Source of the DNA: Bacteroidales bacterium
GTDB lineage: Bacteria > Bacteroidota > Bacteroidia > Bacteroidales > F082
DNA: 64,000 bases
Reading direction: 5' to 3'
NCBI GenBank assembly: GCA_015493525.1
Contig: WGCY01000053.1
Coordinates: 62,001-126,000 of the forward strand
Shown: piece after piece, positions 2,720-6,125 of the stretch
Layout: every line of letters begins with the position of its first letter
Numbering within the stretch: position 1 is the first letter of the stretch
The notes under the pieces: model-generated
The model's database searches: none
What the model saw: only the letters and a program-made list of their open reading frames with translations
Told to the model about the DNA's origin: nothing
Position numbers and translations under genes: made by a program

Positions 2720-3862
2720 TCATATCCCACATCCTCTCCGTATGGCCGATTTTCCAAACCGTTTCCTGATGTTGTCCATGGCCTGATAAAGGTTGGCCAG
2801 CTCCGGTTTTTCATCAAAAAGGCGCAATTGCTGGTTGCCGCTGATAAGCTGGCTAAAACGCACCCCCACCAGACGGATAAGCATCCGGCGTTGGTAAAGC
2901 CGGCCGAAAAGTTCCAGTGCCATTTTAATCAAAACATGGTCTAAAGCAGTGTAGGGGAGGCGTTTCTGTAGTGTGTGGGTATCGAAATTGGTGTAGCGTA
3001 TCTTCACAGTGATGCAGCCTGTGAGCTTTTGCTTTGTCCGCAATTCAAAGGCAACTCTCCCGACCATTTCTATGAGTATGTGGCGCAATTCGGTCAGGTC
3101 AGTGGTGTCCCTTTCAAAGGTGCGTTCGGTACCAACAGACTTTTGTTCAGTATAAGGTGTTACCGGCGAAAGGTCGATGCCGTTTGCTTTTTTCCAGATG
3201 GCAAGTCCGTTTTTTCCCATGACCTGCATCAGCATTTCCGGTGGGACCAAACTGAGCGTATGGATGGTGGATACGCCCATGGAACGCAACAGCCGGTAGC
3301 TTTTTTGTCCCACCATGGGGATTTTCCGGATGGACAACGGGGACAAAAACGATTTTACCTTTTCGGACGGAATATACAGTTCACCGTTGGGCTTTGATTC
3401 ACTGGTAGCCATTTTTGAGACGGTTTTGTTGACCGACAAGCCGAAAGAGATAGGTAACCCGGATTCTTTAATGATGCGTTGGCGCAGCTCGTGCGACCAT
3501 TGCAGGCTGCCGAAAAAACGGTCCATACCGGTAATGTCGAGATAATGCTCGTCGATGGAGGCCTTCTCGTAAACAGGGGCACTTTCGGCAATAATATCGG
3601 TTACCAACCGCGAATATTTACTGTAACGTTCCATGTCGCCCCGGATAAAGACAGCATCGCCACACAGCTGCTTCGCCATACGCACAGGCATGGCCGAATG
3701 GACACCAAACCGCCGGGCTTCGTAGCTGCAACTCGCCACCACACCACGACCGGAAAGGCTGCCGATAATCACCGGCCTCCCCGTTAACTCACTGTTTGTC
3801 AGTCGCTCCACCGACACAAAAAAGCTGTCCAGATCCAAATGAACAATTGTCCGTTCCCCCAT
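2720..3862 (-). CDS. dinB: DNA polymerase IV (Y-family)
   Basis: MGERTIVHLDLDSFFVSVERL...ASIDEHYLDITG...GLSVNKTVSKMATSESKPNG motifs. Confidence 0.94.
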   Translation of the reverse strand: MGERTIVHLDLDSFFVSVERLTNSELTGRPVIIGSLSGRGVVASCSYEARRFGVHSAMPVRMAKQLCGDAVFIRGDMERYSKYSRLVTDIIAESAPVYEKASIDEHYLDITGMDRFFGSLQWSHELRQRIIKESGLPISFGLSVNKTVSKMATSESKPNGELYIPSEKVKSFLSPLSIRKIPMVGQKSYRLLRSMGVSTIHTLSLVPPEMLMQVMGKNGLAIWKKANGIDLSPVTPYTEQKSVGTERTFERDTTDLTELRHILIEMVGRVAFELRTKQKLTGCITVKIRYTNFDTHTLQKRLPYTALDHVLIKMALELFGRLYQRRMLIRLVGVRFSQLISGNQQLRLFDEKPELANLYQAMDNIRKRFGKSAIRRGCGI

Positions 3863-3980: not shown

Positions 3981-4504
3981 ACCACGAAGTCCCGCGAAGG
4001 ATATCACAAAGCTGCACAAAGCGAAAAACACCAAACGCTCATTCGGATTTGTAATCCGAATGCCATAGCAGTCGGTATTTCAAATCCCGACCAGTATTGG
4101 GAAAACCTTCGTGTCCCTTTGTGAAAACCCTTAGTGTCCTTCGTGGTAAAAAAAGGAACCACTAAGTCGCACAAAGTGCATCACCAAGGCACACAAAAGA
4201 AGAAAAGGCCTTCGTGTACCTTCGTGAAACCCCTTAGTGTCCTTCGTGGTAAAAGAAGGAACCACTAAGTCGCACAAAGAGCATCACCAGGCACATAAAG
4301 AAAAAAACTTTCGTGCCCCTTTGCGAAAACCCTTAGTGCCCTTCGTGGTAAAAGAAGGAACCGCTAAGTTGCACAAAGTACATCGCCAAGGCACACAAAG
4401 AAAAAAAACCTTCGTGTCCCTTCGTGAAAACCCTTAGTGCCCTTCGTGGTAAAAGGAAGAACCACTAAGTCGCACAAAGAAAAAACCCTTAGTGCCCTTC
4501 GTGG
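3981..4504. repeat. Upstream half of ~100-bp imperfect-palindrome tandem array (about 5 units)
   Basis: Units start with ACCACNAAG at ~3981, 4158, 4261, 4360 and 4461, and end with ...CTTAGTGYCCTTCGTGGT. Both arms consist of CACNAAG / CTTNGTG sub-repeats spaced ~9-13 nt. Confidence 0.95.
4040..4091. repeat. REP-like double hairpin nested in the first array unit
   Basis: CATTCGGATT-TGT-AATCCGAATG (4040-4062, perfect 10-bp stem), spacer ccatagca, then GTCGGTATTT-C-AAATCCCGAC (4071-4091, one mismatch). Confidence 0.8.
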
Positions 4505-4534
4505 TAAAAGAGTAAAGACTTAAAGTAAGATAAA

Positions 4535-4912
4535 ATGGATGTTTACACTGAAGATGTTTTTAAAGAGATTCTGGATTGTTCTTTTCGGGTACACACAGTA
4601 TTAGGCCCCGGGTTGCTGGAAAATGCTTATGAAGAATGTTTGTTTTATGAATTAAAACAGGCAGGCTTGGATGTTGAAAGGCAAAAGTCTTTACCACTTA
4701 TTTATGAAAAGGTAAAACTGGAAGCCGGATACAGGATTGATTTGATGGTGGAAGGTAGGATAATAGTTGAAATAAAATCTGTTGAAACTATGGCCGATAT
4801 TTACATGGCCCAAATACTAACTTATTTAAGGTTGTCCGGTTGCCGGCTTGGCTTACTAATTAATTTTAACGTAAAACATTTAAAAGATGGAATCAAACGA
4901 GTTATTTTATGA
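4535..4912 (+). CDS. GxxExxY protein (PD-(D/E)XK nuclease-like fold)
   Basis: GPGLLENAYEECL contains the GxxExxY signature; RIDLMVEGRIIVEIKSVE matches the D...ExK core of PD-(D/E)XK folds. Confidence 0.93.
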   Translation: MDVYTEDVFKEILDCSFRVHTVLGPGLLENAYEECLFYELKQAGLDVERQKSLPLIYEKVKLEAGYRIDLMVEGRIIVEIKSVETMADIYMAQILTYLRLSGCRLGLLINFNVKHLKDGIKRVIL

Positions 4913-4913
4913 T

Positions 4914-5290
4914 GAAATCACCAAGGCACACAAAGAAAAAAGCCCTTCGTGTCCCTTTGTGAAAACCCCTTAGTGTCCTTCGTGGTAAAAGAAGGAACCA
5001 CTAAGTCGCACAAAGAGCATCACTAGGGCACATAAAGAAAAAAGCCCTTCGTGCCCCTTCGTGAAACCCCTTAGTGCCCTTGGTGGTAAAAGAAGAACCA
5101 CTAAGCTGCACAAAGAGCATCACCAGGGCACATAAAGAAAAAAGCCCTTCGTGTCCCTTTGTGAAAACCCCTTAGTGCCCTTCGTGGTAAAAGGAAGAAC
5201 CACTAAGTCGCACAAAGAGCATCACTAGGGCACATAAAGAAAAAAGCCCTTCGTGTTCCTTTGTGAAAACCCCTTAGTGCCCTTCGTGGT
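4914..5290. repeat. Downstream half of ~100-bp imperfect-palindrome tandem array (about 4 units, first one 5'-truncated)
   Basis: Truncated left arm ATCACCAAGGCACACAAAG begins about 3 nt after the GxxExxY stop codon; further units at 4997, 5097 and 5199. Confidence 0.95.
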
Positions 5291-5324: not shown

Positions 5325-6125
5325 ATGCATTTCAAAGACAACATTAAATTACTCAGAAAACGCAAAGGCCGCACGCAGGATGAAGTGGCTTTTGCCCTGG
5401 AGATGAAACGCTCTACGCTGAGCGGTTACGAAAACGACGTGGCACAGCCCAACCTGAATGCACTCATGCGCTTCTCCGAATATTACGGTGTCGCCATCGA
5501 CACGCTGGTAAAAGTGGACTTATCCTCCCTTTCGGAAAGCCAGCTATCGCAACTGGAGCGCGGCTACGACAGCTACGTGAAAGGCAGTAACCTGCGTGTG
5601 CTGGCCACCACGGTGGATCAGGACAACGAAGAAAATATAGAGCTGGTAAACGAAAAAGCCAAAGCCGGTTATGCCACAGGGTATGCAGACCCCGATTATA
5701 TTAAGGTACTGCCTACTTTTAAGCTGCCATTTCTGTCCAAGCAGAAAAAATACCGCACGTTTCAGGTGAGTGGAGACTCCATGCTGCCCATTCCGGATGG
5801 CTCTTACGTTACCGGCGAATTTGTACAGGATTGGAACACCATCCGCAACCATCATGCTTATATTGTGTTGACGAAAGAAGATGGGGTAGTCTTTAAAGTC
5901 CTGGAAAACAAAGTAAAAGAAACCGGCAAGTTAAAGCTCTATTCCCTGAACCCCTTGTACCTCCCTTACGAATTGCCGGTAACCGAAATCAGGGAAATCT
6001 GGAAGTTCGTCAATTACATCAGCTCCGAAGTCCCGGAACCCAACAAAGAAAAAGACCAGCTTGCCGAAGAGGTGAAACAACTGAAACAACAGGTACAGGC
6101 CATACAAATGAAATTGAACCTGTAA
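5325..6125 (+). CDS. LexA-like transcriptional repressor, XRE-type HTH plus S24 autopeptidase domain, C-terminal coiled coil
   Basis: N-terminal HTH (LRKRKGRTQDEVAFALEMKRSTLSGYENDVAQPN); S24 motif VSGDSMLPIPDGSYV with Lys in VVFKVLENK; candidate cleavage region EKAKAGYATGY. Confidence 0.92.
   Translation: MHFKDNIKLLRKRKGRTQDEVAFALEMKRSTLSGYENDVAQPNLNALMRFSEYYGVAIDTLVKVDLSSLSESQLSQLERGYDSYVKGSNLRVLATTVDQDNEENIELVNEKAKAGYATGYADPDYIKVLPTFKLPFLSKQKKYRTFQVSGDSMLPIPDGSYVTGEFVQDWNTIRNHHAYIVLTKEDGVVFKVLENKVKETGKLKLYSLNPLYLPYELPVTEIREIWKFVNYISSEVPEPNKEKDQLAEEVKQLKQQVQAIQMKLNL

Follow-up and report, generated by a model that had tools for sequence, protein, structure and literature searches.

In REPtrons, REP/BIME repeats are joined with a RAYT (TnpA-REP) gene into one system (PMC2817692, PMC8266576). 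The RAYT gene is flanked by inverted REPs, which form arrays in about a third of cases; gene and repeats coevolve, and REP abundance correlates with the gene (Nunvar et al., PMC2817692). Could a small GxxExxY nuclease gene surrounded by palindromes belong to a comparable pair? We examined such a gene in the window, by which we mean the whole 64-kb stretch of DNA analyzed here, and related loci in other genomes. The window's genome comprises 2.85 Mb in 53 contigs, and counts within it come from pattern searches. Our results suggest that the GxxExxY nuclease and its repeat are probably a cognate pair that acts as a small mobile or selfish element, and that this repeat-and-nuclease system is apparently widespread and undescribed. 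A search of mainly open-access literature found neither a link between GxxExxY and repeats nor the heptamer motifs in print, and an earlier description is possible.

The array occupies positions 3981–5290, between dinB (minus strand, 2720–3862) and an HTH-S24 repressor gene (plus strand, 5325–6125). Direct reading and a repeat search located nine palindromic units in the same orientation, five upstream and four downstream of the GxxExxY gene (z, DNA-folding score):

3981–4147, plus strand: unit 1, with ends ACCACGAAG ... CTTCGTGGT and made longer by an unrelated repeat that is inserted at about 4037–4092
4158–4250, plus strand: unit 2, full (z -2.8)
4261–4349, plus strand: unit 3, full (z -2.8)
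4360–4450, plus strand: unit 4, full (z -1.5)
4461–4505, plus strand: unit 5, short form (45 bp) with its centre deleted, the gene's left neighbour
4535–4912, plus strand: GxxExxY / PDDEXK_3 nuclease gene, 125 aa (profile matches, AlphaFold2 model, Foldseek)
4917–4986, plus strand: unit 6, left arm truncated, the gene's right neighbour
4997–5087, plus strand: unit 7, full (z -3.2)
5097–5188, plus strand: unit 8, full (z -2.6)
5199–5290, plus strand: unit 9, full (z -2.3)

The full units are mostly ~100 bp, with a start-to-start spacing of 99–103 bp, and the units of the array have the ends ACCAC(T/G)AAG ... CTTCGTGGT; DNA folding of six full units gave z-scores of -1.5 to -3.2. The initial annotation had described nine units of about 100 bp, and their number, coordinates, five/four split and orientation hold, whereas the size is approximate, since two units are truncated and one is enlarged. 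Its description of palindromic units with CACNAAG/CTTNGTG arms is borne out: 32 of the 37 CTTNGTG heptamers on the plus strand of the window lie at 4107–5282, and in a pattern search of the whole genome the paired pattern YTTNGTGNNCYTTNGTG occurred 48 times, compared with 2 for the reversed control. The insert in unit 1 (window 4037–4092) is a different dispersed repeat, ATTCGGATTTGTAATCCGAAT ..., that matched ~25 other places in the genome. The flanking genes, dinB for DNA polymerase IV and the LexA-like HTH-S24 repressor gene, make this an SOS-type neighbourhood.

The window protein is a full-length member of its family, matching TIGR04256 (E 2e-43, 147.5 bits, cut-off 35) and PF13366 (E 5e-41, 140.3 bits, cut-off 22). 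It carries the motifs G26xxE29xxY32, D69, E79-x-K81 and Q93xxxY97, and in an alignment of 64 sequences E29, D69, E79 and K81 are invariant and Q93 and Y97 nearly so, in agreement with the GxxExxY signature and PD-(D/E)XK-like core that had been read from the sequence earlier. Searches by sequence against solved structures gave no match. An AlphaFold2 model (pLDDT 96.7, pTM 0.89) was compared by Foldseek, and the nearest solved folds were Cas4 SSO0001 (4ic1, the top match) and lambda exonuclease, with a best probability of 0.99 and a weak E-value of 7e-3. A marginal Cas4b profile match agrees with this result; no defence family matched better. The protein-family searches that yielded PF13366 and TIGR04256 matched no other family and, in particular, no transposase family. 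GxxExxY proteins are thus best explained as small PD-(D/E)XK nucleases of the Cas4/lambda-exonuclease type by predicted fold. They resemble Cas4, RecB-like nucleases and lambda exonuclease in this fold, in the motif set (E29, D69, E79xK81, QxxxY) and in the top Foldseek matches. On the other hand, no CRISPR or recombination partner family lies beside the window gene, and its 125-aa product lacks the four iron–sulphur cluster-binding cysteines of Cas4; of its three cysteines (15, 35 and 103), only C35 is nearly invariant. The PD-(D/E)XK-like fold also sets the protein apart from the RAYT enzyme, an HUH tyrosine transposase of IS200/IS605 kin.

An array beside a small nuclease gene superficially resembles ToxIN, and the tandem repeat could accordingly be imagined as an RNA antitoxin against a nuclease toxin in a type III toxin–antitoxin-like pair. 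In ToxIN-like systems, however, the repeat RNA lies upstream of a toxic endoribonuclease gene, whereas the window repeats are found downstream of the gene as well as upstream and are dispersed over the genome without it. Furthermore, the array repeats matched no Rfam family, and the predicted fold resembles DNA exonucleases. We consider such a pair very improbable.

We picked 80 GxxExxY loci from genome contigs by protein similarity alone; they came from Bacteroidota, Ignavibacteriota, Verrucomicrobiota, Acidobacteriota, Chloroflexota, Pseudomonadota, Cyanobacteriota and other phyla, and 78 were testable. Flanking inverted repeats were sought de novo (positive at z>5), with positions shifted by 2.2–3.2 kb at the same loci as controls. 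The results show that inverted repeats flanked the gene at 52/78 loci compared with 2/244 offset controls (Fisher p 1e-37), while at about a third of the loci the de novo test found no flanking repeat. The arms are inward-facing iterated heptamers of the general form CRCNRAG with a modal spacing of 8–11 bp. Within 100 bp of the gene, CRCNRAG reached 16/kb upstream and CTYNGYG 21/kb downstream, a 20–27-fold enrichment over a background of ~0.8/kb; some copies have other motifs (CRCNRAT or AGGATT-like units). A strict search for CTTNGTG at the 30 Bacteroidota loci with the best scores first looked negative because this motif is only one variant, and the de novo inverted-repeat test resolved this discrepancy. 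The initial annotation had raised the question of whether arrays co-occur with GxxExxY genes beyond chance, and they do so very strongly, across phyla. At four loci (L243, L253, L260 and L359), the GxxExxY genes are flanked by non-CRCNRAK repeats (AGGATT-, GAATTA- or TGATT-like).

The gene is thus flanked by its own inverted palindromes, as in REPtrons; some loci lie in arrays, and the setting is chromosomal and intergenic. Repeat abundance also tracks the gene in both systems. GxxExxY was present in 183/395 sampled Bacteroidota genomes, at up to ~11 copies per genome, and the window-type motif in 46/395; GxxExxY was found in 37/46 genomes with the motif compared with 146/349 motif-free genomes (Fisher p 1e-6), and within the window's own genome the repeat classes match the genes. 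Unlike in REPtrons, the GxxExxY gene is often framed by one arm per side rather than by two whole palindromes, and its repeats are iterated heptamers with locus-specific variants. Carriage by phages or plasmids does not account for the spread, as GxxExxY occurred in no phage records, in 3 viral contigs and in 8 of 72,556 plasmid records, one of which is chromosomal in content. This record, labelled a Bacteroides finegoldii plasmid (L264, NZ_OY725952.1), has thrA and radA beside GxxExxY and looks chromosomal.

Each locus has its own heptamer variant, the same on both arms (arm similarity 0.85 vs 0.62 when shuffled), and left/right agreement is strongest at heptamer positions 2, 4 and 5 (z 5–7). 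The heptamer state tracks the protein tree, with 6 and 8 changes compared with shuffled means of 17 and 18. Two residues were picked in a first locus set, and the prediction was recorded before it was tested on separate loci. There, residue 10 followed heptamer position 5 (A at loci with K/R, G at loci with E/D; 29:5 vs 0:13, p 6e-8), and residue 94 followed position 2 (A at loci with V/I/M, G at loci with L; 41:12 vs 9:32, p 1e-7); both p values ignore relatedness. Path-independent pairs lent modest support, with 5 same and 0 opposite for residue 10 (p 0.06) and 8 and 1 for residue 94 (p 0.04). The enzyme and its repeat therefore appear to coevolve, as in REPtrons, although the signal is modest after phylogenetic control. 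The residue/heptamer correlation points to, and does not prove, recognition of the cognate heptamer by the protein, and it opens the question of how these small nucleases recognize sequences to direct testing. The earlier repeat-targeting reading gains from the arm matching, the tree and the separate-locus residue test, by which every nuclease would have its own heptamer variant.

Could an ordinary gene simply have been inserted by chance into an unrelated repeat array? The repeat is found genome-wide, and most copies lack the gene, as such an accident would predict. Nevertheless, the 52/78 vs 2/244 contrast, the arm matching and the residue/heptamer correlation refute this explanation; at the level of sequence comparison they exclude chance for the gene–repeat link, and we regard its probability as negligible.

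The window's genome has three GxxExxY genes, all within repeats; the other two lie in CGCAAAG/CGCTAAG repeats (L010) and CACGAAT repeats (L011). Outside the array, we counted 15 CACNAAG, 12 CACNAAT and 7 CGCNAAG same-class heptamer pairs and none of other classes, and these three dispersed classes are exactly those of the three resident genes. A repeat that is genome-wide and has no statistical association with GxxExxY genes, the outcome named in the initial annotation as counting against its reading, is thereby rejected on the statistical side: the repeat is genome-wide, but its classes are those of the resident genes. Genome G292 has palindromes at 13 sampled dispersed places, all built alike from heptamers on either side of a TCCTCCTACGC...GCGTAGGAGGA stem, and at least six palindromes matching these single ones form an array around one of its GxxExxY genes. 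This is the architecture of the window in another genus. Six of the G292 palindromes with the core could be placed in longer single-copy stretches, all of them in gaps between flanking ORFs. G292 also contains CACGAAT/CACGGAT repeats, for which a matching resident gene was not found, and genome G107 has large arrays of the same palindrome kind (L114, L115) and no GxxExxY gene above the family cut-off; the latter are possible orphan repeats. Therefore, repeats can outlive or lack their partner.

As the main rival to a cognate pair, we considered a nuclease gene of the homing type whose home is in repeats spread by other means. Another enzyme would spread the palindromes, and GxxExxY would cut the heptamers and be copied in by repair, so that it is always found inside repeats. 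Small PD-(D/E)XK homing endonucleases exist, I-Ssp6803I being one, and GxxExxY is likewise a small PD-(D/E)XK enzyme that plausibly recognizes palindromic DNA. The position of the gene inside or between palindromes and the correlated change of protein and heptamer, which fits recognition of a cleavage site, are also in keeping with homing. On the other hand, the GxxExxY gene is not in an intron, as the genes of I-Ssp6803I-type enzymes are, and is linked to dispersed repeats. Moreover, no other mobilizing gene lay beside the palindromes in the loci that we read, and the dispersed classes in the window's genome are just those of its resident genes, a pattern more simply explained if the repeats, too, are spread by the gene product. 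We therefore regard the homing explanation as unlikely, and still as the strongest of the alternatives.

Matching sites in related genomes differed in their content. At a first Flavobacterium site, some relatives have the element with its gene, some a palindrome without the gene and some only a gap of 20–29 bp, and a second Flavobacterium site shows the same three states (filled, gene-less and empty). The flanks of the closest gene-bearing/empty pair are 85% identical, and at only ~85% identity gain and loss are not separated. Similarly, one G292 palindrome is absent from G529, a genome of the same genus. The minimal element, consisting of the gene and its flanking inverted arms, measures roughly 470–600 bp at the sites measured, and its start often coincides with the stop codon of the upstream gene. 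We found no target-site duplication or exact insertion boundary at the Flavobacterium sites or the G292/G529 site; we discarded the idea of a duplicated TTAA target, as the ends at several loci run on as inverted, not direct, repeats. The element resembles insertion sequences and MITEs in being short, with inverted ends, gene-less derivatives and presence or absence at orthologous sites. It differs from them in that its ends are iterated heptamers, no DDE, HUH, serine or tyrosine transposase is present and no target duplication was detected.

Among orthologues at the first Flavobacterium site, the median dN/dS is 0.08, which indicates purifying selection. Such strong constraint, together with heptamers spaced by about one helical turn, which would suit protein binding, could also mean that GxxExxY is an autoregulated housekeeping or defence enzyme whose heptamers are kept by the host as operator or binding sites, the dispersed copies being a regulon or chromosome-structure sites. 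However, operators would hardly account for inverted repeats on both sides of the gene and tandem arrays, or for a patchy occurrence between related species at the same site. In addition, broken GxxExxY gene copies are common, and the best defence-family match is the marginal Cas4b one. This makes a host-kept operator system a distinctly less probable explanation than homing.

The cognate nuclease–repeat pair, the reading that we consider likely, draws on the association, the inverted arms, the arm matching, the correlated change, the dispersed cognate copies, the presence/absence patterns, the purifying selection and the predicted fold, all of them seen at the sequence level. Each GxxExxY nuclease would be paired with its own repeat, a palindrome whose arms are iterated heptamers of the CRCNRAG form at about one per helical turn. 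Gene-less palindromes, single or in head-to-tail arrays, would be non-autonomous derivatives, and the window would show a gene inside such an array. As for the binding, cleavage and movement reaction, we infer that the cognate heptamers are most likely bound by the protein, which would probably sit as an oligomer on the palindrome or on a hairpin that the palindrome forms, and would nick or cut there. Cutting would then lead to the copying or movement of units with and without the gene into short gaps between genes, in many cases at a stop codon. The self-propagating unit suggested by the initial annotation is thus supported as an interpretation, self-propagation being deduced from the presence/absence patterns and the dispersed copies.

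GxxExxY elements may even form a class of prokaryotic mobile DNA of their own, with no known transposase: a single Cas4-like PD-(D/E)XK nuclease would read an evolving heptamer code and thereby propagate both its gene and the palindromes that lack it. We see the arguments for and against this as evenly balanced. PD-(D/E)XK nucleases are not known to transpose DNA by themselves. By our comparison, the system appears to work like a REPtron and is not one, since the defining feature of the enzyme is lacking. If the separate-class reading is true, one origin would underlie much of the stock of short palindromes scattered through the genomes of several bacterial phyla. The cognate-pair reading itself would explain where widespread short palindromic repeats come from and what is done by a protein family that lacks a known function, although it is present in nearly half of the sampled Bacteroidota genomes and also outside this phylum, in several others. 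Such a pair would solve the REP/RAYT task a second time, by independent evolution and with an enzyme whose fold is related to that of Cas4.

Other repeats were observed at the first Flavobacterium site. In one relative (L221), a 384-bp stretch with TGCTGAACTAGTTTCAGCATC-type hairpins at its two ends occupies the same insertion place and is possibly a RAYT/REP-like element, and five others (L207, L208, L216, L225 and L222) have another short repeat, AATCCGTTAAATCCGCGTT, at this site.
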